Assembly: GCA_947177735.1 (NCBI GenBank)
Contig: CAMWVP010000007.1
Coordinates: forward strand, 1 to 48,267
Reading direction: 5' to 3'
From: an uncultured Clostridia bacterium
GTDB taxonomy: Bacteria; Bacillota; Clostridia; Oscillospirales; Ruminococcaceae
Length of the DNA: 48,267 bases
The notes under the pieces were generated by a model. The model ran no database searches and was not told the origin of the DNA. It was given only the letters and a program-made list of their open reading frames with translations. Positions 12,260 to 41,763 of this stretch are shown here, one piece after another. Positions within the stretch are counted from its first letter, which is position 1. Every line of letters starts with the position of its first letter. The translations under genes and the position numbers were made by a program.

Positions 12260-12443
12260 TTTTATACTAATTCGCAATCGCAGTATAGACAAGATTTGTG
12301 GCAAGGTCGCGTCTAGCGCAAGGACGCATTATGCGCCTGTTGTCTTAGGACAATTGCGCAAAACGCTCAAGGAGCTTTGACGCAGCGATAGGCGCGAGAT
12401 TGACGCAAAGATGTCTATACGTAGATTGTGAATTAGTTTTATA
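12260..12443 (+). mobile_element. MITE-like element A with 7-bp target duplication
   Basis: The element 12267-12436 (170 bp) is flanked on both sides by TTTTATA (12260-12266 and 12437-12443). Its ends are inverted (CTAATTCGCAATC versus CTAATTCACAATC), and pairing continues imperfectly for about 53 bp per arm. The loop region holds a hairpin (TTGTC-TTAG-GACAA, 12340-12353) and a core starting CAAGGAGCTTTGACGCAG at 12368. It has no coding capacity. The right copy of TTTTATA includes the stop codon of the radical SAM gene. It is related in layout and core to elements at 20817-20978 and 41562-41725. Confidence 0.85.
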
Positions 12444-13335
12444 ATCCCGAGAAGTCGAAGCTCGGAGTGTATTCCTCCTTGGCGGAGGAGCGCTCCTGCA
12501 TATAGCCGATCAGCTCCGCGTTGTATACCGCGTCGAGTACCTTGCGATACTCGAATGTCGTAACGCGGCGGTTGAATTTCTCAAACCGCGGATCGGTCTT
12601 GACACGTCCGAACGGCGTATACTGGCTCATCAGGCTGAACAGTATCTCCCCGCCGAAACGCTCCGCGACACGCTTTACGACATCTATTGAGTCCTTGTAT
12701 TGCCCGGGCAATACGAGATGGCGGACGACCGTTCCGCGAAGCAGTATGCCGTCCTCGGAGAGCACGGGCTTGCCCGTTTGGCGTATCATTTCGGCGAGGG
12801 CGGTCATTGCCGTATCGAAATAATCGGGCGCGTCGGAGAGCAATTTCGCGAGCCCGCTGTCGTAATACTTGACGTCCGGCAGATAGACGTCGACGAGCCC
12901 ATCGAGCGTTTGCAGCGTTTCCACGCGTTCGTAGCCCCCCGAGTTGTACACGATAGGCAGCGACAGCCCGCGCGTCTTGGCGAGCAGCAGCGCGCGTTTT
13001 ATGGCAGGCACAAAGTGCGTCGGGTTGACGAGGTTGATATTGCGCGCGCCTTGCCGCTGAAGATCAACGAAGATCTGCGCAAGTCTCTCCTCGGTGAGCT
13101 CCCTGCCTTTGCGCTCGGTGCTGATATCGAAATTCTGGCAGTATGCGCAGCCGAGTACGCAGCCCGAAAAGAACACCGCGCCACTTCCGCCCGTCTCCGG
13201 GTCTCCCGAGATGCACGGCTCCTCCCAGAGATGAAGCATAGCCTTTGCGGCGACCGGCAGCTCGCCCATTCCGCAGTAGCCGCGCGAGACCGCCCTGTCA
13301 ACGCCGCATCTGCGCGGACAAAGTTCACATTTCAT
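12439..13335 (-). CDS. Radical SAM protein, PflX-like (COG1313)
   Basis: A 298-residue putative radical SAM enzyme related to pyruvate formate-lyase activases of the PflX group. N-terminal Cys motifs (CELCPRRCGVDR, residues 3-14, and YCGMG near 20) precede the SAM/4Fe-4S motif CVLGCAYCQN near residues 59-68. Further family features include GARNINLVNPTHF near 96, YNSGGYE near 130, YLPDVKY near 150 and LVLPGQYKDS near 210. The true substrate of PflX proteins is not established. No pyruvate formate-lyase gene is nearby, so 'activating enzyme' should not be assumed. Monocistronic in this view; the 3' end abuts element A. Confidence 0.9.
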   Translation of the reverse strand: MKCELCPRRCGVDRAVSRGYCGMGELPVAAKAMLHLWEEPCISGDPETGGSGAVFFSGCVLGCAYCQNFDISTERKGRELTEERLAQIFVDLQRQGARNINLVNPTHFVPAIKRALLLAKTRGLSLPIVYNSGGYERVETLQTLDGLVDVYLPDVKYYDSGLAKLLSDAPDYFDTAMTALAEMIRQTGKPVLSEDGILLRGTVVRHLVLPGQYKDSIDVVKRVAERFGGEILFSLMSQYTPFGRVKTDPRFEKFNRRVTTFEYRKVLDAVYNAELIGYMQERSSAKEEYTPSFDFSGL

Positions 13336-13408
13336 TATCAGCTCATTCCTTTCGCTCGACGTAGCACCGAATAAACGGCGTTTTCCCCGAAAGCGGGAGG
13401 AAACGCTG

Positions 13409-14668
13409 TCAGATCAGCGTTTCCTTTGCCAACGAGTTATCCGCGCAGACCGCGTATACTACCGTACAGCCGCTGACCTCAACAAAGCAGTCATAGAATT
13501 TGAACATCTCGGCGGGAATATAATCCTCAAACGCCTTGCGCTGCTGTTCTATACGCTTGTTGAGCGCCGCTTCAATTTTCGCGGCAGCGCTCCCGTCAAC
13601 TGCGGTGAACACCCCGAACTCGTCCGGAGACGCTCCCGAAGCGTTTACTCGCACGGAAAAATCAACGATATCCTCCGCACCGAGATCGAAATACACGCTC
13701 AGATCGTCAGCGGCGATCTCCGTCATTTCCGACAAACCGAGCCTAGCGGCAAGCGCGGTGGTCTTTTCGGAGAGTGCGGAAACGCTCTCCGTTTCCCTTG
13801 CTTCACCGTAATAAGTCAAGGTTTTCTCCACCCTCGACAGCAAAACGGGATAGGTCTTGCCTACAAAGTGCATACCGTCATCGTAGGCGTATTCCTCGTC
13901 GAAGCAGCCGTTTTTGTCCTTCAGTACGCTGTTGAGATCGCAGTACACCGCGTTCAGCTCACCGCACAGAGCGAGTATTTTTTCGTTCAGCTCGTCTATC
14001 AGAGCATTCGTTATCCCCGAATACGCCGCCATAGAGCTGTAAGCGGTTATCGGCGGCACGGAGACGACGCATATGACGCTGTTCGGACAGTCCGCGCGAA
14101 GCGTGTTCAGCAGCTCGCGGTAATCCTTTATGTATTCCTCGAGGTCGGTATCGGGCGAGAGCCCGTTCGAGCCGAGCATTATAATTATATGCCGCGGCTG
14201 TTTTTCCTTGGCGTAATCCGCGGCGCTGCCCGGGTAACGATCCTCGTCGAACGCTCTGTGTACCGCACGGTAGGGAGTGTAACCGCCGACTGCCGCAACG
14301 CGGTCGCGTTCCGTATACGAGTACAGGTACAGCCCGGTAAAAATACTGTCACCTATAAACAAATCGTCAGCAAAAAACTCCTCATCGTAGTCGGTCGTGA
14401 GCTTTATTTCAAGCTCGTGTCTAGGACTCTCGGGTTGAGAACCCTCGGGTCGGAGATCCTCGGGCGGTGCGCTCTCGTTTGTGCTCTCCGAGGACGCGCC
14501 TTGCTCCGTCAAGCTTGACGAGCCGGGCGAACTCTCGAAACCGTATGAGCTTGTGAATGAAGACGATTCAACGAAACCGGAGCTTTCCGGAAACTCCACC
14601 GCCGATCTGCAGCCCGTAAGCGACAGAGCCGCGGCTAATGCGGTCAATACGGCCGAATATTTTTTCAT
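13409..14668 (-). CDS. SGNH-hydrolase lipoprotein with C-terminal DUF4358
   Basis: A 419-residue surface lipoprotein. ATG at 14668 (AAAGGA upstream) gives a signal peptide with lipobox LTGC (Cys20); the longer frame lacks such a signal at its start. A Ser/Glu/Pro linker runs to about 90. An SGNH/GDSL esterase domain follows: FIGDS at 104-108, LGSNG at 165-169, and DGMH at 264-267 supplying the catalytic Asp/His pair. The last 110 residues match DUF4358 (ASPDEFGVFTAVD, KRIEQQRKAFEDYIP). Likely an esterase acting on cell-surface or dietary polysaccharide acyl groups; the substrate is unknown. I know DUF4358 mostly as a stand-alone lipoprotein, so the fusion is of note. Confidence 0.83.
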   Translation of the reverse strand: MKKYSAVLTALAAALSLTGCRSAVEFPESSGFVESSSFTSSYGFESSPGSSSLTEQGASSESTNESAPPEDLRPEGSQPESPRHELEIKLTTDYDEEFFADDLFIGDSIFTGLYLYSYTERDRVAAVGGYTPYRAVHRAFDEDRYPGSAADYAKEKQPRHIIIMLGSNGLSPDTDLEEYIKDYRELLNTLRADCPNSVICVVSVPPITAYSSMAAYSGITNALIDELNEKILALCGELNAVYCDLNSVLKDKNGCFDEEYAYDDGMHFVGKTYPVLLSRVEKTLTYYGEARETESVSALSEKTTALAARLGLSEMTEIAADDLSVYFDLGAEDIVDFSVRVNASGASPDEFGVFTAVDGSAAAKIEAALNKRIEQQRKAFEDYIPAEMFKFYDCFVEVSGCTVVYAVCADNSLAKETLI

Positions 14669-14802
14669 ATGCTGTTCCTTTCCCCAAAATCTTAGGAAAT
14701 GCCTATCAAATTTCTGTTTCAAGAATTAAATCAGCGTTTCCCAAAATAATTATCGTTACGGATTTTCCCCGATTTTTTCGGGAAAACCGCCATATATCGC
14801 TT

Positions 14803-15960
14803 TTAAATTCTTACATTGTATGCCCTTGTAATCGTTTCGGGCAGTGCCGTACCCGTTACCACAACGGTCTCGACACGCTGAAAGCACCTGTTCGCGTTGT
14901 CATATATAAAGGTGTTGTCGCTCCATGGCGAGTTTGTCGCGAACGTCGCGTATCTGCCGCCGATGATCTGGAGCTTTCCGTTCTCGTACAGCTCCCGTGC
15001 GTTTGGAACGTAGGTCAGCACCGTTTTATCCGTGCAGAGTATCTCGGCGAGCTCCGCGTTCGGCGAGACCGCCGCCAGCGCACAGAACTCTCCGCTTTCC
15101 GCGTTAAGCAGGAACGGCTCGAACGTGTCCCAGCCGAATCCGCCAAGCAGCATATTCCGATACACCGAGACTGGACAGCCCGAGAGCTTGAGCTCTGCCT
15201 TACCGTTTTTAAAAGCATATATCGCGCTTCTGTGTCCGCTCTCGTTGTGACCGAAGTCGAAAAAAGCGTGCACCGTATCGTCCATATAAGACAGCAGCCT
15301 GAACGCGCTGTAATCCTGACGGCAAGCGTCATAGAGTATCTCCGTGCCGCCGTCGGCATTGACGTAAACGGGAATGTGATAATCGGTATGCCCCGACCAT
15401 TCCATTTGGGAATACGGGAGCGGCACGCGGAGAATAACTATGCTCTCCTCGTTCTCCCCGTCGAGCTTATGTCTAACGCTTGCGACTATATCGCAGCGGA
15501 AATCTATCTCACTCGTTCCGGCAAGGTAATCGCTGTAGCCGTATACTAGCCAGAGCGGCTGCTCGGGGTTCTCGTTTATGACAAGCTCGCCGTTTTCGAT
15601 CGTGAACATCTCGTTCGCCAGCTCCAGAGCCTCGCCGTAAAGCTCCGATTTCCTGTATGTCTCGATAGCCGCCGCCACAGCCGTATCGTCCGCCAACGGC
15701 ACCGAAATATCGTCGATAAACGAGCAGCCTACAAGCCAAGCGCTGTCAAAATCGGCGATATGATCGGCGATATAGAAGTCTTCGGTAAGCTCGATCCCCG
15801 CCCCGCTGTCGGAGCTCGAAGCCTCGGAGCGGCTTTCAACGCTCGATTCGGAAACGGCGGACTGCTCCGACGGCTCGGACGAATCGTCCGTTGGAATAAG
15901 CGTACACGCGGCGAGTAGAACTATCGGCACTAACACTGCCATGACTGCGGTTTTCCTCAT
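14803..15960 (-). CDS. Hypothetical Ser-rich lipoprotein
   Basis: A 385-residue lipoprotein of unknown function. ATG at 15960 with AAAGG upstream gives the signal peptide MRKTAVMAVLVPIVLLAAC (Cys19). A Ser/Glu linker reaches about residue 55. The rest is a soluble, mixed alpha/beta domain rich in Trp and Tyr (DFDSAWLVGCSFIDD, LWLVYGYSDYLAG, YMDDTVHAFFDFGHNESGH). No known catalytic motif is visible. It resembles the Ser-rich lipoproteins elsewhere in this window only in signal and linker. Transcribed in the same direction as the SGNH gene, about 130 bases upstream of it. Confidence 0.75.
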   Translation of the reverse strand: MRKTAVMAVLVPIVLLAACTLIPTDDSSEPSEQSAVSESSVESRSEASSSDSGAGIELTEDFYIADHIADFDSAWLVGCSFIDDISVPLADDTAVAAAIETYRKSELYGEALELANEMFTIENGELVINENPEQPLWLVYGYSDYLAGTSEIDFRCDIVASVRHKLDGENEESIVILRVPLPYSQMEWSGHTDYHIPVYVNADGGTEILYDACRQDYSAFRLLSYMDDTVHAFFDFGHNESGHRSAIYAFKNGKAELKLSGCPVSVYRNMLLGGFGWDTFEPFLLNAESGEFCALAAVSPNAELAEILCTDKTVLTYVPNARELYENGKLQIIGGRYATFATNSPWSDNTFIYDNANRCFQRVETVVVTGTALPETITRAYNVRI

Positions 15961-16043
15961 AATTCGACCTTTCAAGCGAAATCATTTTTCGACAATATTA
16001 TAGCACATTCTTCACATACAGTCAATAAAGATTTGTTCCCATA

Positions 16044-16080
16044 AAAATAAAACATCCCCTCACATCCTTGCTCGGGGGCG
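16044..16080 (-). terminator. Terminator at the end of the flagellar operon
   Basis: On the minus strand a CCCCC/GGGG stem (CGCCCCCGAG ... GAGGGGATG) is followed by TTTTATTTT, just after the last flagellar gene. Confidence 0.65.
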
Positions 16081-16084
16081 TTTT

Positions 16085-16570
16085 TTACAGGTTTTTGTTC
16101 AGCGACTGTCCTGTCGCTCTTCCGACGACGGCGCTGTTATAATAGCCGATCTTCTGCTTGGTCTGCTTGAGCTGTTCAAGCTCGCGGCGCGAATCGACGT
16201 GCCTGTCCTTGAACTGCCCGTTTATCACCTTGTCCTTGTCGACAATTCTCTGCTTGGTCACGGTGATATTGCGCTGGAGCAGCTGGAGCTTCTTGTGTGT
16301 CTCATCAAGCGTAACGCTTATGTAGCTGCCGTTTATCAGCGCTTTTAACAGCGCCGATTCCTCGGGAGCCTCGCACTCGATCACCGCCTCAAGATCCTCC
16401 TTCAGATCTTCGAGGGTCTCTATCAACTCATTTCTGGCAATGAGCCCCTGCTGGAGTATTTCAAGCTCGGCATTTATCATAGTGTCGGTTTGTTTTTCGT
16501 ATTCCTGGAGCGTCGCGAGAATTTTTGTCATCAACTCGCTTGCCCGTTCACAGCCAAAAAGCTCTGCCAT
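16085..16570 (-). CDS. Flagellar-operon protein, FliT-like chaperone candidate
   Basis: A 161-residue protein, nearly all helical and charged (residues about 20-140 look like a coiled coil: LATLQEYEKQTDTMINAELEILQQG, ETHKKLQLLQRNITVTKQRI). ATG at 16570 has GAGGGG upstream. It is the gene after fliS, the place where fliT or another export chaperone often sits. Size and helical content fit, but I see no decisive motif. It ends the operon and is followed by a terminator. Confidence 0.6.
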   Translation of the reverse strand: MAELFGCERASELMTKILATLQEYEKQTDTMINAELEILQQGLIARNELIETLEDLKEDLEAVIECEAPEESALLKALINGSYISVTLDETHKKLQLLQRNITVTKQRIVDKDKVINGQFKDRHVDSRRELEQLKQTKQKIGYYNSAVVGRATGQSLNKNL

Positions 16571-16606
16571 ACTTTTCCCCTCTTTCCGCGGCATTTGCTT
16601 CTGTTA

Positions 16607-17020
16607 TCAGAATATGCCTTTTTTCTGATTTTGTTTCTCCTGTGCCTCGATCTCTTCTCTGGTCATCTGGCTTATCTGTGTGAACGCGTCGCGCAGCTCT
16701 CCGAACATCGGGATGATCTTCTTTATCTCCGTGCAGTCTTTGCTGACGTTCGCCTTGACGATCTCTTTGTAGAAGAAGATGTACAGGCTTTCGAGATTCT
16801 GCGAGATGGGCACGGACATATCCAACGCCTCGCGGAGCGCATCAATGCAGTCCTCCGCCTTGATAAACGCGGCGTTTGATTTCGCGTAGTTCTTCTTCTC
16901 GACAAAATCCATGCCGATGGCGAGCTGACGCTCGATCTCGCTGTACAGCTTGATAACGACCTCAACGGGTGTCATGGTCGTGACAGACTGCTTTTTATAT
17001 GCGGAATAAGGATTTACCAT
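16607..17020 (-). CDS. fliS: Flagellar export chaperone FliS
   Basis: A 137-residue protein that binds newly made flagellin and keeps it from polymerising before export. Family features: MVNPYSAYKKQSVTTMTPVEVVIKLYSEIERQL at the N-terminus (the NPY-AY-KQ-V-T-P pattern), then helices with KAEDCIDALREALDMSVPISQNLESLYIFFYKEI. The C-terminal tail is Lys/Gln-rich and slightly longer than usual. It lies between fliD and the FliT-like gene in the same operon. No flagellin gene is in the window. Confidence 0.95.
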   Translation of the reverse strand: MVNPYSAYKKQSVTTMTPVEVVIKLYSEIERQLAIGMDFVEKKNYAKSNAAFIKAEDCIDALREALDMSVPISQNLESLYIFFYKEIVKANVSKDCTEIKKIIPMFGELRDAFTQISQMTREEIEAQEKQNQKKGIF

Positions 17021-17051
17021 AGCTATCCCTTCTCCTTACTTAATAAGCAAA

Positions 17052-17081
17052 GCCGCGCAAACTTGCGCAAGGCTGCGCGGC
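17052..17081 (-). other. Intra-operon hairpin between fliD and fliS
   Basis: GCCGCGCA pairs perfectly with TGCGCGGC around a 14-base loop that holds TTGCGCAA. No T run follows, so it may be an RNA-processing or stability hairpin rather than a terminator. Confidence 0.55.
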
Positions 17082-17094
17082 TCGCCGTGGTTTG

Positions 17095-19491
17095 TTACTG
17101 CTGAGTTGTGCCGAAGTTGCCGAGGAAGTTAGCCATATAACTGGATTGGCTGTTCATATCGGACATCATCTTCTCGAGGTTGGTGAATACGCTCCACCAA
17201 TACTCCTCCTTGGCATCGTAGCGATCCTGAAGCTGGCTGATACGCTTGTTTATCTGCTCCATCTGGCGATAGATAGCGTTGTTCTTGGCGGTCGAGCCGC
17301 TTTCGAGACCCGCCTTGCGGATAAGCGTTCCCTTGACTGTATTTCCGGAAAGCCTCGTGGTGCTTATAGCACCGTCAATGGTATTGCTTATCTTCCTCAT
17401 AATACCTGTCTCGGTATCGGTAAACAGCTTTGTTATAGCCTCGGGATTTGTCTCGAACGCCTTATCGAGAGCCTCCTCGTCAATCTCGAGCTTACCGTGA
17501 CGCGCGCCCTCGCTGTCTTTCATAGACGATACAACGCTTATGCCCATATTGTACAGACCGAATTTCGAGCCGTCGTCCAGCGTAACGCTGTTGTACATCG
17601 CTATTCTGATCTGAGACATAATGCTCGACACCGTGGAGTCATTGTAGAGAACACCCGTTTTTGCGGCTTCTTCCCACTTCTCGATCTCCTTCTCGGACAT
17701 CTCTTCCTTCTGAGCGTCGGTCAGCGGGTCGTAGGTGTTGTTTTTGGAGTCGCGCTTGGGAGCGGTGCCGATATGACCGTAAATGTCGTCGATCAGCTGG
17801 TTGTAATCCTTCACGAAGTCCTTGATCGACTGCTTTATATCGTCATAGTTCTTGGAAATGCTCACCGTGATATCGGTGTTAAGCTCAACGTCGGTGAAGT
17901 CGAACGTAATGCCGTCCATAGTATAGGAGCTGCCGTTGTGGTAGACCTCAACGCCATCTATCGTGAACTTTGCGTTCTCGCCAAGCTCGTAAACAGCGCC
18001 CGCGCCCGTCGTAAGACCGAGAGCCTTTGCAAACTCGTCGTCCTCGTCGATATCAACATCGCCGCCGTTGCCCATGTCGTTGGCTTCGATAATGAACTTG
18101 TTCTCAAGCTTGGAGTAGGTCATGGTAACTCCCGCGCCGCTCTTATTCACAGCGGAAACGAGATCGGCGATAGTAGCGTTCTTATCGACCGATATCTCCT
18201 TGCCGTTTATCGTCATCGAGTACTTTCCGTCCTCGTTCGGCTCAAGACCGAGATTATACAGCTCCGTCTTGTCGGTGAACTTGTTGGAAACGCTGCCCTT
18301 TTCAATACCGAACGTTCCGCCGCTTGTCGCGGTAAGCGAAAATCTTACGTCCTCGCCCTTGCTGTCCTTTGCGGTAACATAGGACTTGTCGATCGAGAAA
18401 GTGATGCCTTCGCCTCTGAACTCTCTGTTCAAGGCGCTCTGCATATACTCGGTATTTCTGTCCTTTGCCGCCTGAGTGCTTGTATAGGTGTATTTTTCAA
18501 GCTGCTCTTCGGTAGGCAATGTGCCGTTTTCCTTCACATATGCCGCAGTCTTGAGCCGATTATACTCCGCAAGGATAGGCTCATTACCCGCTTCATTGCG
18601 GCTGTCGTAGTAACTCTCGGAAACAGCGCTGAACTTTACTTCTCTTACGTCTCCGCCGACGTCTACGGTTATCGAGTTCATACCCGTAACGGCAGCCTGC
18701 GGCGCTATAGCGACCTTTGTCGCAGGTCTCGCAAGACCGAAGTTGCCGGTCTTTTCGGTAATGGTAACGGAGGAGTTTCCGTTTACGGTAAATCCGATAG
18801 AACCGTCGCCGTTATCCTTTGCCTGGATAAAATATTTTCCGCTGTCCTTATCGGTCTCGCCGAAGTAATCCTTGAGCTGCTGATTCAGATCGTCGATAAC
18901 ATCGGTTTTCGCCTGATTTAACGCCGCCTCGGAAATGCTTCCGTTGGGGTTGGGAGTCACATTTGCCTTGAACTCCAGCGTCTTGGAAACGTCGCCGACC
19001 TTTACGTTAAGCTCAAAGTTATAGGTTCTGGTACCGTCGTCGTTGGTGGTGTACTCGGAGGTGTTCAGCGCCTTTTCAAGATCGATATTGAAATTCTGCG
19101 TACCGAGAACGGAACCCGTGCGTGTGGTCGCGGTAGCCTTGCGCGCAACGTTCAGCTTATGAGTACCCTCAACGGCGTTCGAGGTCGTAGTCACCTTGAG
19201 ACCCGAGTCCTTTGAGGGGTCGGCCTTGTTGGTGATAGTGGTCTTGAACTTTGAGAAGGCAGTCGGGCTCATAAGGTAGCTGTCTCTCTTAAGGATATCA
19301 AAGTACTTGCCCTTGAAGTCGCTCAGCTTCGTGATTATGTCACGATAAGCCTCCTGCTGCCAGGTAAGCTTTGTAAGCTTTTTGTTCTGATTGTCGATCT
19401 TCGTCTGATAGGTCTGCATCATCTTCTCGATCATCGCCTCGGAATCGTAGCCCGAGTTGATGCCGGCAAGACGCATTATGTCATTAGCCAT
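17095..19491 (-). CDS. fliD: Flagellar cap protein FliD (hook-associated protein 2)
   Basis: FliD caps the filament tip and guides flagellin assembly. The FliD_N domain starts at residue 1 (RLAGINSGYDSEAMIEKMMQ), and the FliD_C region has NAKFTIDGVEVYHNGSSYTMDGITFDF near 506-532, SISKNYDDIKQSIKDFVKDYNQLID near 544-568, and C-terminal coiled-coil QMEQINKRISQLQDRYDAKEEYWWSVFTNLEKMM. At 798 residues it is well above the usual 450-700. The extra length is in the middle (about residues 100-500), the surface-exposed part that varies between strains. One base separates its start from the csrA stop. Adhesive roles known for some FliD proteins are possible but not shown. Confidence 0.95.
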   Translation of the reverse strand: MANDIMRLAGINSGYDSEAMIEKMMQTYQTKIDNQNKKLTKLTWQQEAYRDIITKLSDFKGKYFDILKRDSYLMSPTAFSKFKTTITNKADPSKDSGLKVTTTSNAVEGTHKLNVARKATATTRTGSVLGTQNFNIDLEKALNTSEYTTNDDGTRTYNFELNVKVGDVSKTLEFKANVTPNPNGSISEAALNQAKTDVIDDLNQQLKDYFGETDKDSGKYFIQAKDNGDGSIGFTVNGNSSVTITEKTGNFGLARPATKVAIAPQAAVTGMNSITVDVGGDVREVKFSAVSESYYDSRNEAGNEPILAEYNRLKTAAYVKENGTLPTEEQLEKYTYTSTQAAKDRNTEYMQSALNREFRGEGITFSIDKSYVTAKDSKGEDVRFSLTATSGGTFGIEKGSVSNKFTDKTELYNLGLEPNEDGKYSMTINGKEISVDKNATIADLVSAVNKSGAGVTMTYSKLENKFIIEANDMGNGGDVDIDEDDEFAKALGLTTGAGAVYELGENAKFTIDGVEVYHNGSSYTMDGITFDFTDVELNTDITVSISKNYDDIKQSIKDFVKDYNQLIDDIYGHIGTAPKRDSKNNTYDPLTDAQKEEMSEKEIEKWEEAAKTGVLYNDSTVSSIMSQIRIAMYNSVTLDDGSKFGLYNMGISVVSSMKDSEGARHGKLEIDEEALDKAFETNPEAITKLFTDTETGIMRKISNTIDGAISTTRLSGNTVKGTLIRKAGLESGSTAKNNAIYRQMEQINKRISQLQDRYDAKEEYWWSVFTNLEKMMSDMNSQSSYMANFLGNFGTTQQ

Positions 19492-19492
19492 G

Positions 19493-19726
19493 TCACTTTT
19501 CCTCCTGTTTATGGGAATTCAGAAGCTGCTCGATAGCGGAGCCGGAAGCGTGAGCGGACTGCTCGTTTGTCTGGCGGAGCGTTTTAAGCTCACTTCTGAA
19601 AACTTTTACCTCTTTTGGAGCGTTGATCCCGATCTTCACCTTGTCCTTGGATATCTCAAGAACCGTGATCTCGATGTTGTCGGCGATCGATATGCTCTCG
19701 TCTGCCTTTCGCGTTACTACCAGCAT
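19493..19726 (-). CDS. csrA: Carbon storage regulator / flagellin translation repressor CsrA
   Basis: A 77-residue RNA-binding dimer ([47 protein letters not shown]) with the conserved RxxE-type C-terminal helix start. The C-terminal tail ([21 protein letters not shown]) is longer than in E. coli. ATG at 19726 with AAGGAGG seven bases upstream is preferred over the TTG at 19732. It follows fliW directly. In Firmicutes FliW binds CsrA and lifts repression of flagellin translation; that switch is expected here, with its flagellin target outside the window. Confidence 0.96.
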
Positions 19727-19728
19727 GA

Positions 19729-20163
19729 TCAATCCTCCTTAGGTGCGTATACGGGATACTTGAACTCATAGTCCTCCAGAATGACCTGTGCGGCGATATT
19801 GTCTCTTATATTGAGCACTATCGGGCAGCGCAGATTTATGGTGGTCTGCTTATAATCATCGGGAACGATCGCAACGGCAAGGCACGAATAAGGCGTATCC
19901 TCATCGATCTTCAGCGTTGCCTGTTCCTCGTCCGAGATCTCAAATCTGTAATCGGGGTAGATCTGCATCGGGTTGTACACGACAAAGCAAGGCTCCACGC
20001 TGTCCACTGCCTGAAGCCACATCGGGAAAGTGTTTTCGCCGAGCGGATAGATCAGCGTATAGCGCTTTACGCTCTCAAACCCGATTATACCGTCGGGAAT
20101 GTTTATTATCGTGCTCTCGTTGATCTCGATCTCTCCGAAATCCCTTGTTTTAATTTTCATCAT
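19729..20163 (-). CDS. fliW: Flagellar assembly factor FliW
   Basis: An approximately 144-residue protein that binds free flagellin or, when flagellin has been exported, CsrA, setting flagellin translation. Family features: [20 protein letters not shown] near residues 20-40, [20 protein letters not shown] near 47-66, [27 protein letters not shown] near 90-118. ATG at 20163 follows AAGGA; a TTG further out overlaps the preceding stop codon. Its end overlaps the region of the csrA start signals, so coupling is likely. Confidence 0.95.
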
Positions 20164-20165
20164 AT

Positions 20166-20789: not shown

Positions 20790-20816
20790 TTAAAACACCT
20801 CCTGTGTAATAATATT

Positions 20817-20978
20817 ATACTAATATCCGTTTAAACGAGGGAAAAGATTTGCTGAAAGACGGCATCGATTTCTAGAAAATCGACCGCCGCAAGGCTTTAT
20901 GCCTTGCAAGGGAGATTGACGACGAAAGCGGTGCCGTCTTTCGGCAAAGATTTCCTGAGTTTAAATGGGTATTAGTAT
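20817..20978 (+). mobile_element. MITE-like element B inside the flagellar operon
   Basis: A 162-bp inverted repeat: the left end ATACTAATATCCGTTTAAAC and the reverse complement of the right end ATACTAATACCCATTTAAAC differ at two places, both G-U pairs in plus-strand RNA. Pairing resumes to the shared GAAAGACGGCA, giving arms of about 47 bp. The loop has two hairpins (CGATTT-CTAGA-AAATCG and GCAAGGC-TTTAT-GCCTTGC). The second is followed at once by CAAGGGAGATTGACG, related to the core of elements A and C. No clear target duplication and no coding capacity. It sits between flgL and the DUF6470 gene. Confidence 0.8.
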
Positions 20979-21024
20979 TGAAGACGCGCCGCGCGGCTCT
21001 GACACCGCGCGATGCCGTCGCAAT

Positions 21025-33037: not shown

Positions 33038-33066
33038 GTCATTGCCTCAACTGTCACACAAACTTT

Positions 33067-33093: not shown

Positions 33094-33123
33094 GTCTGTG
33101 TTATTTCACGGCCTCAGCCGTTT

Positions 33124-34017: not shown

Positions 34018-35133
34018 TTAATCACCCGCCCCTCCAACAGAATACGAACCGCTTTCGGTCTTTTTGGTCTCGAAGGGATAAGAGCCGTAGATGTTTACAT
34101 GGGTTTTTCCGATCTTTGCAGCGCCGGTTTTCTCGTCGTAAATCGGGCTCCTGTTGTACGTGCCGCTGCTTCCGTTCTTGCCGAACGAACTTGCCGAAAT
34201 GCCGGGATCCTCATTGAACACCACTACAAATTTCGTTGTAACACTCGGCTTGAATCCATCCGGGTGCGGATACTTATTGGGGTTGAATACGTTGTTGCCT
34301 GTTACGGGCATAGAAACCTTCACGCCGAAGCCCGATATCTGCGATACAACATACTGATTGTTCGTATCGCCGATCTGAATGACTTCCTTGATCTTAGCCT
34401 CGTCGTAGACCTTCTTGTAGTAGCTGTCAACAACGACCTCTTCCATTTCACCCTCGGCGTTTTTCTGCTTTTTCTTTACCTCCACGAGCTGATCGTGCCA
34501 CTTCGTGGTGGAGTAGAAGTACAGTCTCAGCTGAGAATCCGCAATATCATCAGACTGCATATTGCTCGAGTCCGCGGAGACAGTAATCTCATAAGCGAAC
34601 TTACCGTAAGGATTACCCTCGGGGAGCTTGGATACACCGATATTGATGTCCTCCAATCCCTTGGTTCCGGTGATTCTTGTGTCGTACTTTGACGCCTGAC
34701 CGACGCCGTTTCCGGAGCTGCCTCCACCGCTGCTGCCGGTGCCGTCAGCACTGTAGTCGAAATCGCCGACAAAGTAGTTGATTCCCTCAACAATATCATC
34801 GCCGGTTGCGTCCGGATCGGTCGCCTTTATCATATAATCCATGTTAATGTCCAACGGTGTCTCGGAGGGGTCGCTCGGATCCTTTTTGAACGACAGATTT
34901 ACCGTTCCGTCCGGGGACGCGTCCTCGGGGAAAGGACTGGTGTCCTTCCCGTTGACAACGAGCTCCTCTTCCTGTTGGTTGAGATTTTCCGCGAATCTGA
35001 GATTTTGGTTGCGCTGATCTATCGAAAGCCGGAGCATCTGCATGATCATCGCCATCATTATCGAGAAAACGGCGATAGCGACAACGATCTCCGCCAGTGA
35101 GAAACCGCTCTTATTTGAGAATAATCTTTTCAT
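34018..35133 (-). CDS. Minor prepilin, 371 residues
   Basis: Prepilin-type start with a very short leader MKRLFSNKSG and FSLAEIVVAIAVFSIMMAMIM (Glu at +5; Ser at +2). The body is long, hydrophilic and Gly/Ser/Asp-rich, with a low-complexity Gly/Ser stretch (GTGSSGGGSSGNG) near residue 125. Repeated Lys/Glu segments (EVKKKQKNAEGEMEEVVV) follow. Such size is uncommon for pilins and fits a tip or adhesin-like minor subunit. Zero-base junction with the next gene. Confidence 0.83.
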   Translation of the reverse strand: MKRLFSNKSGFSLAEIVVAIAVFSIMMAMIMQMLRLSIDQRNQNLRFAENLNQQEEELVVNGKDTSPFPEDASPDGTVNLSFKKDPSDPSETPLDINMDYMIKATDPDATGDDIVEGINYFVGDFDYSADGTGSSGGGSSGNGVGQASKYDTRITGTKGLEDINIGVSKLPEGNPYGKFAYEITVSADSSNMQSDDIADSQLRLYFYSTTKWHDQLVEVKKKQKNAEGEMEEVVVDSYYKKVYDEAKIKEVIQIGDTNNQYVVSQISGFGVKVSMPVTGNNVFNPNKYPHPDGFKPSVTTKFVVVFNEDPGISASSFGKNGSSGTYNRSPIYDEKTGAAKIGKTHVNIYGSYPFETKKTESGSYSVGGAGD

Positions 35134-35145
35134 AAAAACGCCTCC

Positions 35146-37563
35146 TTAATAGCTTCCGAGACCGATCTTCCAGCTTCTGTCAGCAAGCGCGAGAAGCTCC
35201 TCGCCGCTGCTTTCGCCCATCAGCTCCCAAGGCATCTTATCGGGATAGCAGTTGGTGACGAAGTAGGTATCGTCGAACGAGAAGTCCGAAACGATCAGTC
35301 CGCCGCACAGCTTATTCGAGCTTCCGCCGGAATTGCCCTTTGCCTTGAATGTCATATAAGGCGCGTAGATAAAGCCGTACAGACCGTTCGCCATAACCGG
35401 TCCGCCGGTCAGGCTGTAGCCTATGCGTATATCCGCACTCTCTTCACAGCTTACTATGAAGATGTTTACGTTCGGATAGTTGTTGCCGGGAAGTGTTATG
35501 CCGTGATCGCTGCAGTAATCGTCGACAACATCATGGTCGATGCGGTAGTTGCAGACGCCTGCGGTATATGAGCCGTCGTCGAGCTCCTCGATCTTCTTCG
35601 CTTCACTCTCGTGGCACAGCGGGCAGACCTCGCTGACGCTGGTTCTGCCGTGGCTTGCGCACTTCACGCCGATCTTGTATGTGCCGGGGTGTTCCTTACA
35701 TTCATCGGACGTTGTGTACTTGCTGTAAGAGCAGCCGTCGCCGTTTTTGCACGACTTGTGGATAAACTGAGAAGCCATGAGCGCGGAGTCGGTTGCGGTG
35801 ATGGGTGCGCTGCTGTAGTAAGTAGCAGCCTTGGTGCTCCAGGTGCCGTGTTCATCCATGACTTGATTTTCCCACGTCTGATCCGCGAGACCGCCGAGCA
35901 GCGTGAACCAACCCTCGTGCATAAACTGCTGTCTGTCGCAGTCCTGATAGGTCGTACCCTCGGCAACGTCGATAACCAGTGCGCCCTTGCCTCTTACCAG
36001 TATCGTATTGGAGGTGCAGCAGTTGTGGAACCATTTAAATACGTTTCCGCCGAAGTTGCCCGAAGTGTCAAGATATCCCTTGACGCGAAGCGTCATGATA
36101 TTGTCTGGATTCTCGCCCGTATCAATGATTATGGTGAGCGGCGCGTTATTGCCGTTAAAGCCGCCTCTTACCTCTTTTATAACACCCGCGTAGCAGACAA
36201 CGTCCGCCGAGCCGAGGGTATCCGATCTTGATCCGGGATACGCTATCGTATAGGTTGTGGTCATTGCGGGAACGCCGTCCACGGGCTGGTTGTAATCGTT
36301 GAGCTTGATGGTGATCTGATTATATTTTCTCGGATTGGTTGTAGGGTCGTCACCGATCGTCGACTGGTCGAGCTCGGGGAGATAATCGTCCTTTGTCTTA
36401 TCCATATCCTTATCGGGATCGCCGTCGTTGATGACCCACTTAGCGTAAGCGCGGCTCTGAGTGCTCGACTTCAGAGAATTTTTCATTTCGGCAAATTCCT
36501 TCATATCGGGAGAAGTTGTGCTAAAACCCTTATTCATGCTGACCGTACCGCCGACAGCCATAGGCGTGTTGCAGGTCAGACACCAGTCACCGCCGGTGAC
36601 GTTGCCCGCAACATGAACGTTTACGTTTGTAAAGTCCAGATTCTGACCGGGCTGCAGCGCCAGATTGCCGCAGACATACAAATCCATAGTGCCGGTGGTG
36701 CATTTGATACCGCCGCCCGCGCCTATGAAGTCACCGCCTACCACGATCTTGCTTCCCGAGGGGAAATCGATGACCTGTCTGCCTAAACAGTATGTGAGAT
36801 CGCCGAGTATATACCAATCGACGGGCTGATTAAACTCGCTGTACTTGGCGTCCAGTGCCGGGGACATTATGCTGAACGACTCGTTGACAATGAGGTTTCC
36901 GCCGGCTCTGAGGTTTCCGGAGATACGGCAGTATCCCGCGCCTCCGGGCATGGACAGATAGCTTGTTTCCGTATCAAAGAATACGTCGGTTATAAACTCG
37001 CCGCCGCCGAGGCTCGCGTCGTTGTCGACATAGCCCGTAGCCGCGAAGATATTGTTATCCTCGGGCAGCTTGTTGTTCACCATTTCGACATGTACGTACA
37101 TATGAACCGTTTCCGCAACGCCGTTGTTGATAGTGGTCGTTGCGATATCAAAGGTCATATTTTCCTTGCCGTTTACCATTTCATTGGGCAGACGTGTGAT
37201 ATCCATCGAGTACGCGCCCATCTGCGAAACATCTGCGCCCGTAAGCGTAGAGTCAAAGCTGGTAAAGCCGTTCGCACCCGTAGTTATTGTATCGCCCTCA
37301 TTCATAGCGGACAATGTGGTAAACAGATCGGAATCGCCCTGTGTGAGCGAACCGTCCATAAGTCCCGCAAGCACCATATCGTTCAGCGATATAGCCGACT
37401 GATATGACTGCTGCTGGAAGAAAGTTGCAAATTGTGTCTGGCGCGATGAGATCACCGAGAAGTACATCGCCATACACGCTATCATCAGTGCCGTCATGGT
37501 ACTGATGACCATAAACAACGCGCTTCCGCGGTTGCTTAGGTATTTCCTAAGTGAATGTGCCAT
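35146..37563 (-). CDS. Large PilX-like pilus-associated protein with Cys-rich region
   Basis: An 805-residue protein that starts like PilX_N proteins: a short basic leader (LRKYLSNRGS), then one hydrophobic helix (ALFMVISTMTALMIACMAMYF) and a Gln-rich stretch. The helix has no Glu at +5. The body (about 200-350) is Gly-rich and repetitive in a way that suggests a beta-helix (ISGNLRAGGNLIV, KIVVGGDFIGAGGG, LYVCGNLALQPG, VHVAGNVTGGDW). Residues about 605-690 contain some nine Cys with several His (CSYSKY, CKEHPG, KCASHG, VCPLCHE), a possible metal-binding knob. It is probably the tip component of the pilus. Confidence 0.72.
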   Translation of the reverse strand: MAHSLRKYLSNRGSALFMVISTMTALMIACMAMYFSVISSRQTQFATFFQQQSYQSAISLNDMVLAGLMDGSLTQGDSDLFTTLSAMNEGDTITTGANGFTSFDSTLTGADVSQMGAYSMDITRLPNEMVNGKENMTFDIATTTINNGVAETVHMYVHVEMVNNKLPEDNNIFAATGYVDNDASLGGGEFITDVFFDTETSYLSMPGGAGYCRISGNLRAGGNLIVNESFSIMSPALDAKYSEFNQPVDWYILGDLTYCLGRQVIDFPSGSKIVVGGDFIGAGGGIKCTTGTMDLYVCGNLALQPGQNLDFTNVNVHVAGNVTGGDWCLTCNTPMAVGGTVSMNKGFSTTSPDMKEFAEMKNSLKSSTQSRAYAKWVINDGDPDKDMDKTKDDYLPELDQSTIGDDPTTNPRKYNQITIKLNDYNQPVDGVPAMTTTYTIAYPGSRSDTLGSADVVCYAGVIKEVRGGFNGNNAPLTIIIDTGENPDNIMTLRVKGYLDTSGNFGGNVFKWFHNCCTSNTILVRGKGALVIDVAEGTTYQDCDRQQFMHEGWFTLLGGLADQTWENQVMDEHGTWSTKAATYYSSAPITATDSALMASQFIHKSCKNGDGCSYSKYTTSDECKEHPGTYKIGVKCASHGRTSVSEVCPLCHESEAKKIEELDDGSYTAGVCNYRIDHDVVDDYCSDHGITLPGNNYPNVNIFIVSCEESADIRIGYSLTGGPVMANGLYGFIYAPYMTFKAKGNSGGSSNKLCGGLIVSDFSFDDTYFVTNCYPDKMPWELMGESSGEELLALADRSWKIGLGSY

Positions 37564-37649
37564 TCTAATGTCCTCCTTTCAAGTACTTACAGTTTCCCGT
37601 ATTGCAACAGTCGGTGCGAATAAAATTATCCGCACCTATGCTGAAAATC

Positions 37650-38600
37650 TTACGTCGAAGTACCGTCCTGAGCGTCAAGTACCGGGGTGGGATCCTGCAT
37701 ACGCTCTATGCAGTAGAAGGTCATGGTGTCGGACCAAGAGTACACGTAATCCACGATTTCCGCGATCTCTTCCTCTTCTCCCGGGAGACCGTTGGCACCA
37801 ACAGCCGGGTTGGCGGGATTTGCTCCGGCAGGCGTTTCCTCTTTCTTTTCAACAGGCAGACCCGTTGCCGCGGCGAGTGCTTTCTTACCCGCTTCTTCCG
37901 CCTGTTCGTTGAGCTCCTCTACTAGCTTCTCGTACTTTTCCGTTACCTCCCAATAGTCCAGTGTAAGACCGTTGATCTTGATAGCTTTTCTGACTTCCTT
38001 GCCATTCTCATCAAGAACATAGGAGTTTATTTCGTCTGCGAATTTGACAAGCTCATCGCGGTCGATAGCGCTTACGGTAAAGCTGACCTGGCTTGCTCCA
38101 ATGGTCTGAATATCACCGAGAGCGTTGTTGAGCTTTGTCTGTCTCGCGATCATAGCCGCGTAATCTGCGGGAACGGTGGCACCCTGGGTCGCGTATGTCT
38201 TAAGGTCGTATTCGACAGCGGGGTTGACATAGAAGTTCTTTCCGAGAGTAGCGGTCGTAGGTCTGTCTACGCTGAGAGACTCAACGACTACCTTGGCGGT
38301 ACACTTCTCGAGGAAGGCTCTGAATGCCTGATCCGCCTGATAGGCTGTGAACTCGGGGAAGAACATATCCGCCATATGCTCGCCGTCTTCGTATGCCTTT
38401 ATGATCTGATCCTTGAGCGGACCTTTTCTTGCCGCTTTTTCAACGTCTCCGTCGTACTCTACCTGCTTGCTCGCAAGCGCGGCAACCGTTGCGCCGATTG
38501 TTTCGATCTTCGGCTTTACGAGCAGCCATCCGCCGAGTGCGAGAATTAAAATAATAACGATAATTATAGCGCCGATGCGCTCCTGTTTACTTAATCTCAT
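37650..38600 (-). CDS. pilO: Type IV pilus alignment protein PilO
   Basis: A 316-residue inner-membrane protein: a short basic cytoplasmic start, one membrane helix (IGAIIIVIILILALGGWLLV, about 9-28), a coiled coil (about 30-65) and a PilO-type ferredoxin-like domain (about 75-250). The C-terminal part is Pro/Ala/Glu-rich. It overlaps the stop of the PilM-PilN fusion gene by one base (TAATG). It works with PilM and PilN as the frame that links the cytoplasmic motor to the pilus. Confidence 0.85.
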   Translation of the reverse strand: MRLSKQERIGAIIIVIILILALGGWLLVKPKIETIGATVAALASKQVEYDGDVEKAARKGPLKDQIIKAYEDGEHMADMFFPEFTAYQADQAFRAFLEKCTAKVVVESLSVDRPTTATLGKNFYVNPAVEYDLKTYATQGATVPADYAAMIARQTKLNNALGDIQTIGASQVSFTVSAIDRDELVKFADEINSYVLDENGKEVRKAIKINGLTLDYWEVTEKYEKLVEELNEQAEEAGKKALAAATGLPVEKKEETPAGANPANPAVGANGLPGEEEEIAEIVDYVYSWSDTMTFYCIERMQDPTPVLDAQDGTST

Positions 38601-40264
38601 TATTCAGTCACCTCCCCTTGTTGTGCTGTATCAATAGGCGTACTTGCTGCGTCGAGGTCGAGTGTAGCGTTCTTCTCGTCGCTTCCCATTTGCAGCTCCA
38701 TTGTCATCTTGAACGAGAACACGGTATCATACTTTTTGTTTCCGGTTTCGGAGAGCAGTGTGTATGTACCCCAATCGGTCAGATTGTCCTTTTCAAAACC
38801 CGTGTAATTGATATTTACAAAATACGGATCGCCGTATTTGTTAAGCACTTTGGTAGAGAGATATTCCGCGTATCTTGACGGAACGGAGGAGGGATCACCC
38901 TGCGAAAGTCCCTTGAACTCTACCGACACGCTGTAATTGTTGACTTCGATCTTTGCGATCTCAAGCTCCTCTTTATCCTTATCGGAAAGCAGCTTGTCAG
39001 TCGTGCTGTCGAGCGGTTCGCGAACCTTGGCGAACACTTCGCTCTGAACCTTGGGCTGGTAGTTGAACAGCAGCGAGGTCTTGTTGACGGTGTCATTGTA
39101 GCTGTTAAAGCCCTGCAGCATCACGTCGCGTTCGTCAACTATCTGCAGGTCTCTCTGCATCTGGGGATCGTCGATCTTTGCCTGGAGGGCGTTTATCTGT
39201 CCGTTCAGGTTGTTGTTGATAACGTCGCATACCAGCAGCGCGCCGGCGACAACGGCTGCCGCGCCGAGTGCCGCGCCCGCAAATCCGAGCAGGAATCCGT
39301 TAGAGCCCTTGGACTCCTTAGCGGAAGTAGCTTCGAGCAGGTTGATGTGCTCGAGGTCTTTGTTGCGGCGGTAGAGCGCGCCGATCGCGTTCGCGTACTT
39401 CGAGAAGTCGAACTGTACGGAGGTAGCGATGGAGCTCGGCATTGAGAGCATATTCGTCGGAACGTTGAACGAGGATATCGCGTTCGTGATTTCGATGAAG
39501 CTGTCGATCTCGCCGTAGAACAAGATTTCCTGAAGCGGCTTAGCGCCCTTGCGCGACCTGATGAACTGGATCATTCTGAACAGGTTGTCGTAAACCGCGC
39601 GCGTAACGTAGTCGGGAGCGTTCTCGTAATCGTTCGGGTCGATGTTAAAGAATCGGGAGAACGCGAGCTGATTTTCCTCATACAGGTTCATATTGAGGAA
39701 GTTCTTATCGATCTGGATAAGCAGTATCGGCATTCTGTCCGACATCTTCGGAGTATTGATGATAAGACGGGTAACGGAGTTGTTGGAGATGTTTACGCCC
39801 TTAAGCTGAAGTCCCACATGGGAGAAAAGCCTTACGTAGCCGTCTACCAGTCTCTGCGGACACGCAGCCGCGATGACCTTGAGCATCTTGTTCTTTTCCT
39901 CGTCCTCGGTCTCGCCCGCTATAGTAAATGATATGTTGAACTCGTTGGATACGTTCATATTCGACTGGATCATCGCTTCGATGATAGCCGGATTTTTCAT
40001 ATTCTTCGGCTTTGCAACAACCATTTCCTTGTATACTATGGAGCTGGAAGTAATGGAAACTATCGCTTCCTTCTCCTTAATATCCTTGGACTTGATGATA
40101 TCGTTCAGTTCTGCCGCCACCATAGGAACGTCGGTAACGTAACCGTTTGCGATCATTCCGAGCGAGAGCTCGCGCATATCCGCGTCCTGCACTCTGATCT
40201 TGTTACCGCTGTGTACGCCTCTGACAAGCTTTATTTGTCTGTCGGTAATATCTATTGAAAGCAT
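38600..40264 (-). CDS. PilM-PilN fusion protein
   Basis: A 554-residue protein that joins two pilus frame proteins. Residues 1-300 form a PilM-like actin-fold domain (MLSIDITDRQIKLVRG at the start, IVSITSSSIVYKEMVV, PILLIQIDKNFLNMNLYEENQL, LFYGEID, YANAIGALYR). Directly after it comes HINLLEA (306-312), the short motif that is normally the very N-terminus of PilN and binds PilM. A membrane helix (323-347), a coiled coil and a PilN periplasmic domain follow. The PilM partner peptide is therefore attached in cis. The frame has no stop or shift at the junction, and pilO follows. Confidence 0.85.
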   Translation of the reverse strand: MLSIDITDRQIKLVRGVHSGNKIRVQDADMRELSLGMIANGYVTDVPMVAAELNDIIKSKDIKEKEAIVSITSSSIVYKEMVVAKPKNMKNPAIIEAMIQSNMNVSNEFNISFTIAGETEDEEKNKMLKVIAAACPQRLVDGYVRLFSHVGLQLKGVNISNNSVTRLIINTPKMSDRMPILLIQIDKNFLNMNLYEENQLAFSRFFNIDPNDYENAPDYVTRAVYDNLFRMIQFIRSRKGAKPLQEILFYGEIDSFIEITNAISSFNVPTNMLSMPSSIATSVQFDFSKYANAIGALYRRNKDLEHINLLEATSAKESKGSNGFLLGFAGAALGAAAVVAGALLVCDVINNNLNGQINALQAKIDDPQMQRDLQIVDERDVMLQGFNSYNDTVNKTSLLFNYQPKVQSEVFAKVREPLDSTTDKLLSDKDKEELEIAKIEVNNYSVSVEFKGLSQGDPSSVPSRYAEYLSTKVLNKYGDPYFVNINYTGFEKDNLTDWGTYTLLSETGNKKYDTVFSFKMTMELQMGSDEKNATLDLDAASTPIDTAQQGEVTE

Positions 40265-40308
40265 ATCTTCACCTCATAATTATTTTTTTGTTTTTGAACG
40301 CCGAACTC

Positions 40309-41499
40309 TTACGAAACGTTCGTCATTCCGCCGTAGAGCATCGGGAATACGCCCGCGAGGAAGAGTCCGATCGCGATACCCATGATGATGATCATCAACG
40401 GCTCCATCAGACCTACCAGCTTTGTGATAGCCGAATCGGCTTCTTCATCATAATAATCCGCGGACTTGCTGAGGATCGTATCCAGCGTACCGGATTCCTC
40501 TCCGACAAATATAATTGAGGTAAACATACCCTCAAATATTCCTGTTTTCTCGATAGCCTTCGACATACTCTCACCGAGCTTGATGTCGTTGACAACGTCC
40601 TTAAATCGCTTGTGTACATAAGTATTGTTTACGGCAGCGATCGACTTTTCGATACATTCGACCATCTGAAGACCCGCACCGTACAGGTTGGACATATTTC
40701 TCGCAAACGTACCCGTGTACATTGTCGCTACAAGCGTTCCGACCTTCGGTATTTTCAGAAGCAGCTCATCCATTTTCAAGCGCGTGGAAGGTGTCCTGCG
40801 CAGCATAATGAACGTGAAAATTATGGCGAAAATAACGATTATGTAAATATACCAGTAGTTGATCAAAGAATCCGAGAATGCGATAAGCGCCGCCGATATG
40901 GGGGTGATGTCGTCGGGATTCATCATTTCCTGGAAAGTCGGGAGGATAGCCACGAACATGAATATCAGAACCACGAGCAGCAGAACGCCCAAGACGATAG
41001 GATAAACCATTGCGGATTTAGCCTTGTTCGCGGTTTTGTTGGCGTTCGCGTAGTGGTCGGACAATCTGTTCAGCATCTGATCCAGAGTACCGGACGCTTC
41101 GCCTGCCGCCACCATGCTCACGAACATGTCCGGGAAAATGCCCGGCTTTGAAATAAGCACGTCGGAGAAGGATTTACCCTTTTGTACCTCCTCGTAAATA
41201 TCCAGCAGCACGGCCTTTGCCTTTTTATTCTCCTGCTGATCCTGAAGGATGTGCAGCGCTCTTACGAGCGACAGACCTGCAGAAGTCATGGAAGCCAGCT
41301 GACGGCTGATAAAGGATACCTCCTTGGTCTTAAACTTGTACTTGACGTCCGCGACGCCCCCGCCGAGATCGCGGTAGCTGGTCACGTAGAGCTTTCGATC
41401 CCTCAGTCTTGCCTGAAGGTCCTTATAGTCCTCCGCTAGCTCCTGTCCTCTGACGGTACGGCCGTTGACGTCGGTGGCAACATAAGAGTATTTGTTCAC
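40309..41499 (-). CDS. pilC: Inner-membrane platform protein PilC
   Basis: The polytopic platform on which pilins are assembled, about 396 residues, normal length. GTG at 41499 has CGGAGG seven bases upstream; the longer frame from 41523 lacks an RBS. Two GspF-type domains: KTKEVSFISRQLASMTSAGLSLVRALHIL near 60-88 and, in the second half, the matching TFARNMSNLYGAGLQMVECIE, with three membrane segments. The end MIIIMGIAIGLFLAGVFPMLYG matches the family. First gene of the leftward pilus operon. Confidence 0.95.
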   Translation of the reverse strand: MNKYSYVATDVNGRTVRGQELAEDYKDLQARLRDRKLYVTSYRDLGGGVADVKYKFKTKEVSFISRQLASMTSAGLSLVRALHILQDQQENKKAKAVLLDIYEEVQKGKSFSDVLISKPGIFPDMFVSMVAAGEASGTLDQMLNRLSDHYANANKTANKAKSAMVYPIVLGVLLLVVLIFMFVAILPTFQEMMNPDDITPISAALIAFSDSLINYWYIYIIVIFAIIFTFIMLRRTPSTRLKMDELLLKIPKVGTLVATMYTGTFARNMSNLYGAGLQMVECIEKSIAAVNNTYVHKRFKDVVNDIKLGESMSKAIEKTGIFEGMFTSIIFVGEESGTLDTILSKSADYYDEEADSAITKLVGLMEPLMIIIMGIAIGLFLAGVFPMLYGGMTNVS

Positions 41500-41561
41500 C
41501 TGATAACCTCCGTTCCCCAACATCTGTTGTTGAAAATATTAGGCGGCAGAAGTCCTATTTT

Positions 41562-41725
41562 AGAGCCTGTTCAGTATCTCGGCGCACATGGATTGTCGAG
41601 CATAATTTTGCCGAGAACAAGGAAAAACGACGAAGAAATACTTAATGTATTTCAAGGAGTTTTGACGCAGTTATCGGAAAAATTTGCCGACAAGACGTGT
41701 GCGAAGAGATGCTGAACGGGCTCTT
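41562..41725 (+). mobile_element. MITE-like element C in the pil operon leader
   Basis: A 164-bp inverted repeat. The ends GAGCCTGTTCAGTATCTC and (reverse complement) GAGCCCGTTCAGCATCTC differ only by two transitions. Pairing continues imperfectly for about 56 bp per arm (41562-41618 with 41670-41725). The loop has a perfect hairpin GAAATAC-TTAAT-GTATTTC (41635-41653) followed by CAAGGAGTTTTGACGCAG. Counting ends from GAGCC, TTA flanks both sides, a possible 3-bp target duplication. No coding capacity. It lies between the pil promoter and pilC, so it is in the leader of that transcript. Confidence 0.82.
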
Positions 41726-41763
41726 AGGGCGCAACTTACCCATAGCCACCTACTTGTAATTAA

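Follow-up and report, generated by a model that had tools for sequence, protein, structure and literature searches.

Bacterial MITEs are usually regarded as terminal products of IS elements in which the palindromes are passive, and EFAR is one of the palindromic intergenic repeats. According to the portions of the reports that were available, the BOX elements of Streptococcus pneumoniae are modular MITE-like repeats with predicted transcript folds and with ends like those of a resident IS (PMC3049150), REPINs are hairpin-forming, non-autonomous extragenic elements whose fold is tied to a putative transposition intermediate (PMC3116915), and ERIC, Correia/NEMIS and bcr1 are palindromic intergenic repeats, some of which are cleaved in RNA (PMC10969869, PMC2267715).

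The window analyzed here, a stretch of 48,267 nucleotides from an uncultured Clostridia bacterium, contains three hairpin elements (A, B and C) that we assign to one family of repeats. Judged by the same partial descriptions, this family comes nearest to BOX elements and REPINs. Compared by description with the available part of the BOX report, the family is alike in its modularity, its MITE-like nature and its predicted folds. Unlike BOX, it resides in another host, and its one core is joined to several end types throughout an order and outside it; moreover, no strand test of private against shared changes was found in that part of the BOX description (PMC3049150). The family resembles REPINs, as far as the available part of their description goes, in its hairpins, its non-autonomous nature and its compensatory changes, but REPINs are linked to RAYT tyrosine transposases, whereas the elements studied here have 3-bp target duplications and one genome contains DDE-type IS remnants that share their ends. 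ERIC, Correia/NEMIS, bcr1 and EFAR, likened to the family by description, are also palindromic and intergenic but belong to other lineages. MITEs of the IS5 superfamily have 3-bp TNA or ANT duplications and terminal inverted repeats, as observed here, and the IS remnants just mentioned, found in the genome G061, have ends identical to those of the elements. The definition of a MITE however includes neither a conserved folded core nor a strand bias in the rod, and both are present in this family.

The edges of A, B and C were set by their target duplications, read by eye, and the window contains the following features:

12262-12264 and 12439-12441: target duplication of element A, TTA and TTA
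12265..12438, plus strand: element A (174 bp), ends TACTAAT/ATTAGTT
12324..12367, plus strand: nested hairpin module in the loop of A, which takes the place of the left half of the inner helix
12368..12385, plus strand: right half of the core in A, CAAGG ... GACGCAG
20815-20817 and 20978-20980: target duplication of element B, TTA and TTG (not identical)
20818..20977, plus strand: element B (160 bp), ends TACTAAT/ATTAGTA
20872..20924, plus strand: core of B, CTAGA-helix-GACCGCCG, hairpin CAAGGC-TTTAT-GCCTTG, CAAGGGA-GATT-GACGACG
41560-41562 and 41724-41726: target duplication of element C, TTA and TTA
41563..41723, plus strand: element C (161 bp), ends GAGCCTGTTC/GAACGGGCTC
41618..41670, plus strand: core of C, CAAGGA-helix-GACGAAG, hairpin GAAATAC-TTAAT-GTATTTC, CAAGGA-GTTTT-GACGCAG
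45978..46067, no strand assigned: fourth palindromic element, core-less, GGTCACCTCTAAAAACC ... GGTTTTTAGAGGCTCCC, flanked by TATA/TATA

All three elements are intergenic: A adjoins rpsF, and B and C lie upstream of a DUF6470 gene and a T2SSF gene, respectively. The right TTA of the duplication of A is the stop codon of a minus-strand radical SAM gene. Searching the window with R1, a covariance model built from alignment A2 (14 copies of the base form, each represented by its inner 110 nt), we recovered A, B and C with scores of 63.9, 109.4 and 93.6 bits together with a weak antisense match to B (31.2 bits). Nothing else was found in the window up to E=10, and the fourth palindrome (45978..46067) did not match R1. 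The three related hairpin elements of the original prediction are all present, and their membership of one family is supported. A is an altered copy, with a second palindromic module and with part of the inner helix gone, and a DNA search (query about 60-112) found stretches related to its nested module at other sites in its own genome. The cores of A and C, compared by eye, agree in 21 of 25 positions, as had been proposed. When the arms were aligned strand-symmetrically, all transition differences gave plus-strand G-U pairs (3 in A, 5 in B and 3 in C, where 3, 4 and 3 had been counted earlier) and none gave A-C. The claim that the terminal inverted repeats vary while the core is kept holds for the family; it fails for A compared with B, which have the end motif TACTAAT in common, and only C has a different end.

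The plus strand is modeled as a rod of ~56 nt per side, with small internal loops, that leads into a head in which CAAGG, a helix, CGCAG, a hairpin, CAAGG, a helix and CGCAG follow each other. The two internal loops of the head are one motif (CAAGG/CGCAG) in opposite orientation around a covarying helix of 5-8 bp. In A2, 92.0% of the cells were paired and double changes were found at 22 of the 35 pairs, with a covariation score of 0.566 vs 0.191 for shuffled alignments. Alignment A5 (54 distinct rows from many genera), which was fitted to the covariance model and leans towards the structure of that model, had 91.3% of its cells paired, double changes in 34 of the 35 pairs and a covariation score of 0.779, vs 0.187 when shuffled and <=0.143 when slid. 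This strong covariation signal supports the conserved plus-strand fold that had been proposed from three copies. In addition, five columns that are unpaired in the model showed no variation in 51 of 51 rows, which come from many genera (4 of 55 rows were dropped). The presence of C as the sixth core base in 22 of these 51 rows led us to abandon two readings of the core, as a CsrA-type binding site (CARGGA) and as a Shine-Dalgarno sequence. No Rfam model matched the window at gathering score, and at E<=1 the sole match lying on an element in the 5 + 16 loci searched was a plant miRNA model in L226 (E 0.7, far below threshold). A sub-threshold match to the xerDC RNA in L253 is located outside the element.

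DNA searches of the genome of origin with A, B and C gave 41, 15 and 37 matches, respectively, including the queries themselves and some antisense matches, and the pattern CAAGGNNNNTTGACG occurred 31 times in this genome vs 4 times for a reversed control. With R1 we obtained 89 matches in the same genome at E<=1e-3 (150 of 2298 first-look candidates were scored), of which one lies antisense to another match and a few are truncated by the end of a contig. Since wrong-strand reads of true elements reach about 31 bits, matches near this score say little on the core. A search of relatives with R1 was positive in 39 of 61 genomes, with matches in 34 of the 37 genomes of the genus (own one included) and in 5 of the 24 genomes from the rest of the order. 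In a sample of the order, R1 matches at E<=1e-5 were present in 79 of 394 genomes and 44 of 168 genera (about 9 candidates were scored per genome); 28 of these loci were fetched, and the core or a close variant was present in the 24 viewed. In a sample of the phylum R1 matched 7 of 398 genomes, four of which are outside the order, and the loci viewed in these four genomes display the core. Further copies of the family, as anticipated from the window, were in this way found by the covariance model in the own genome, the genus and the order.

A strict core pattern run over the named genome collection retrieved 70 stretches, of which, according to their labels, 39 are from Planctomycetales bacterium MS499-59 (G061), 23 from Oscillospiraceae, 5 from Clostridia and 3 from Bacteroides; the same pattern had no occurrence in viral_contigs. 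The Planctomycetales label of G061 is plausible. When proteins of G061 were compared with those of Oscillospiraceae loci the top four matches were 44-55% identical, which indicates that G061 is a distant host; two short matches of 86-91% are to L200, a locus of G061 itself, and the prepilin word was not found in G061. For later tests we used 175 places (181 R1 matches minus 6 overlapping ones). Both halves of the core were detected by the strict pattern at 123 of these places, most of the others look by eye like one-base core variants and a few are core-less (such as L205:4151 and L039:1163). The family is abundant and has no Rfam entry, and we found neither a name for it nor, in the literature searched, a report of it. 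As a nucleic-acid family of Oscillospiraceae-labelled bacteria, it can easily be taken for noise or for candidate riboswitches.

The excess of G-U over A-C in the plus strand extends well beyond the window. The 28 copies of the own genome contain 105 G-U and 16 A-C (93 vs 8 without the composite copy L031), and 84 representatives chosen from the 175 places contain 279 and 61, with the orientation of the elements assigned by a model that itself favors G-U. Counted per element, G-U was above A-C in 72 of the 84 representatives, below in 4 and tied in 8. In 34 elements from other genera the bias persisted in a weaker form (G-U 120, A-C 63; 22 elements above, 6 below and 6 tied), which counts against the explanation that we favor below. 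We also assembled a control set of 235 inverted repeats from 772 kb, including 131 at R1 places, from which near-duplicates were removed. With orientation ignored, the imbalance persisted in 51 core-bearing palindromes (230, expected 207.1, sd 5.3), and 70 core-less palindromes showed none (majority 303, expected 296.2, sd 6.5, p 0.17). The strand-specific pairing beyond chance that was claimed for A, B and C is upheld in the expanded set.

Comparing private with shared changes allows selection that acts on spreading to be told apart from selection that acts on resident copies. This comparison was made on five subfamilies comprising 98 copies (21 of the 26 fetched from G021, 40 from G061, and 11, 4 and 22 copies from the own genome). 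Changes were scored away from the Watson-Crick consensus pair and considered as shared when they occurred in at least two copies at different places. Private changes displayed no bias (G-U 32, A-C 25, p 0.43) and shared changes a clear one (G-U 30, A-C 8, p 0.0005), the counts being small in both classes and assembly errors possibly being among the private changes. A looser first run, in which flanking columns were included, gave a weaker contrast (summed counts of 75:50 for shared and 69:70 for private changes). Shared changes numbered 52:29 at paired and 6:17 at unpaired positions (Fisher p 0.0017), the corresponding private counts being 28:26 and 8:6. A mutational cause predicts the same direction at unpaired positions, and since these run the opposite way (6:17) we ruled out deamination in a single-stranded intermediate as the source of the bias. 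At positions paired on one strand only we counted 7:21 shared and 1:6 private changes, and the former value fits a return from G-U to Watson-Crick pairs, a reading made after the fact. Of the 171 private changes 18 fell on core-loop positions, roughly in proportion to the number of such positions (97 of 810), but of the 282 shared changes only 15 did (p 0.04). Private transitions showed no dependence on the orientation of the flanking genes (++ 10:11, -- 12:14). The presence of the bias in shared changes and its absence from private ones suggest that the fold is selected in spreading lineages and not in resident copies. Resident copies thus appear to drift, the fold being maintained in the copies that give rise to others, and one folded strand is suggested to matter for spreading. 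The original prediction had instead proposed elements kept as plus-strand RNA, which was not borne out for resident copies, as private mutations have neither a G-U bias nor a dependence on gene orientation.

The elements are short and non-coding and have terminal inverted repeats, all of which are MITE traits. They also display insertion polymorphism: site B was empty in 20 of the 20 same-genus loci in which the flanking gene was found (24 genomes were examined), and the only R1 match at the site B loci of relatives was a 17-bit match elsewhere in L353. For three end types, identical 3-bp duplications were present in 34 of 47 copies (all TNA), 11 of 22 (all TNA) and 36 of 39 (35 ANT and one GGT), and they were non-identical in 27 of the 108 copies with both ends recognised. 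TNA and ANT duplications are typical of IS5-superfamily groups. REPIN/RAYT systems are not known to make target duplications; here duplications are present. The end types comprise TACTAAT, GA[AG]C[CT]TGT, AGACCTGTTC and CTCTAAAAACC, plus a tRNA T-arm-like end in G382 and G218, and the head is constant. ARAGORN predicted no tRNA gene at the T-arm-like elements; three of these loci hold a tRNA elsewhere. The earlier view that these are not ordinary MITEs was correct in that the ends vary around a constant core, but the ends and the target duplications are themselves MITE-like.

A 460-bp decayed IS copy of G061 (L214) bears both element ends, and a piece of a related remnant in the same genome (L217, with one end seen) matches DDE_Tnp_4 at 5e-7. 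No full-length IS-sized pair was found among the first 100 of 172 end words of G061. In G352 we observed an IS5-type IS with an end that is related but not identical to that of the element. The PF01609 transposase was detected in 8 of 13 element-bearing genomes; it was absent from the other 5, and none was found in the own genome, absences that count against the explanation given below. The orientation of the elements to flanking genes at the 175 places was ++ 55, -- 52, +- 16 and -+ 18, with 13 elements inside called genes and 21 without a called gene on one or both sides, counts that rest on crude gene calls. Since this orientation is random, it is a coincidence that A, B and C are flanked by minus-strand operons, a point to which the original prediction had given weight.

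We consider it probable that the elements constitute a non-autonomous, MITE-like mobile family that moves as DNA and whose plus-strand fold acts in cis for spread. A, B and C are copies of this family, whose base form is ~160 bp, and they would be mobilised in trans by IS transposases, with the IS5 superfamily as the most likely source. Every copy forms a long palindrome, and its plus strand folds to a rod with a conserved head made of two near-identical opposed loops, a helix of 5-8 bp and a cap hairpin. During propagation the folded strand may act in cis, and the conserved unpaired bases may bind a putative protein, perhaps as a two-fold site. A MITE family combined with a portable folded module that is cis-acting in spread is the simplest account. 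As to the nature of the folded strand, we lean slightly towards RNA over single-stranded DNA, because G-U is accepted as if it were a regular pair and the elements show no trace of an orientation linked to replication. We advance only tentatively the proposal that the family is a DDE-type, target-duplicating one whose spread requires a cis folded single strand (RNA or DNA) with a two-fold loop motif, and whose core swaps transposase ends and crosses taxa. A DDE transposase needs double-stranded ends only and gives no reason for a strand-specific fold, which counts against the explanation judged probable above. If one folded strand does matter for spreading, this would point to an unrecognised step or factor in repeat mobility and to a portable folded module that outlives its ends.

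Several other explanations were weighed against a MITE-like family with a cis-acting fold. One of them, which we regard as unlikely, is that the plus strand folds as single-stranded DNA, in an attC- or REPIN-like manner, and that the mobilising enzyme takes this fold as its substrate. IS200/IS605-type transposons are not known to make target duplications and single-stranded DNA transposition is associated with a replication-linked orientation, so that the 3-bp duplications and the 55:52 orientation to genes argue against this form. It would however agree with the location of the bias in shared and not private changes, and in DNA too G-T is better tolerated than A-C. Furthermore, REPINs are described, in the part of the source available, as forming hairpins in single-stranded DNA or mRNA, with frequent compensatory changes and a putative transposition intermediate (PMC3116915). 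The ordinary MITE, in which the fold is unselected, the paired changes arise by template switching between the arms and the bias is mutational or an alignment artefact, has in our view a low probability. The MITE hallmarks are present, template switching can make the arms and also the inner helix agree, and the bias is weaker outside the genus and in the looser private/shared run. Yet template switching is expected to have no strand preference, and core-less palindromes from the same loci lack the imbalance. Nor would an ordinary MITE account for unbiased private changes, for the opposite direction at unpaired positions or for the five invariant core bases across many genera.

A retro-element, in which the plus-strand RNA would be reverse-transcribed and the copy integrated in a SINE-like manner, is very improbable: it would explain why one folded strand is biased in changes common to several copies, but both the ends and the duplications are of the DNA-transposon kind, and G061 contains IS remnants that have these ends. 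We give the least credence to a regulatory RNA (leader, attenuator or mRNA stabiliser) that the host maintains for the adjoining genes, although the intergenic positions of A, B and C next to the genes named above would suit such a role and BOX and ERIC repeats are said, in the available part of the BOX report, to affect co-transcribed genes (PMC3049150). The random orientation to genes and the independence of private transitions from it speak against this role, and for B it is refuted by the empty site in the 20 relatives where the locus was found.

Two further arrangements were observed among the copies. In L322, two inverted full elements surround an ISAs1-like gene, but a composite transposon was rejected because element 1 has its own TAA/TAA, which makes independent insertions likelier. 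Four JAQUHC copies have, by eye, 4-bp duplications.

A subclass of the elements, represented by loci L254-L269 in genomes G382 and G218, has ends resembling a tRNA T-arm (GGGTTCGACTCCCGCATGC) and bears an additional hairpin in its left arm. At the elements of six related loci (L228, L231, L238, L244, L249 and L250) no tRNA was detected by ARAGORN.

Repeats also found in the window:

45978-46067, palindromic element number 4, lacking the core (the conserved folded head of the family), with ends GGTCACCTCTAAAAACC and flanks TATA/TATA

12324-12367, second small palindromic repeat, ACGCATTATGC...GCAAAACGCT, also at loci L039, L040, L041 and L044

7945-9141, 39-nt repeat in 12 copies, in plus-strand reading frames, spaced mostly by 66 bp

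1953-2136, 92-bp sequence duplicated in tandem at 97% identity, flanked by two minus-strand genes

At two loci, L112 and L252, the core is present between ends similar to those of the palindrome numbered 4. Many elements carry the second small palindromic repeat in their loops, and stretches related to it are also present at other places in the genome. The pattern of the 39-nt repeats is presumably leucine-rich-repeat-like.

Around element A (window 12200-12441), the TTA target duplication doubles as the stop codon of the radical SAM gene on the minus strand, and inspection by eye revealed a putative sigma-70-like promoter for rpsF immediately to the left of the element. Elsewhere, a sub-threshold match to xerDC RNA lies close to an element but outside it (L253, 1937-2059), and at L322 (G352:C2) an ISAs1-like transposase gene is located between two full elements in inverted orientation.
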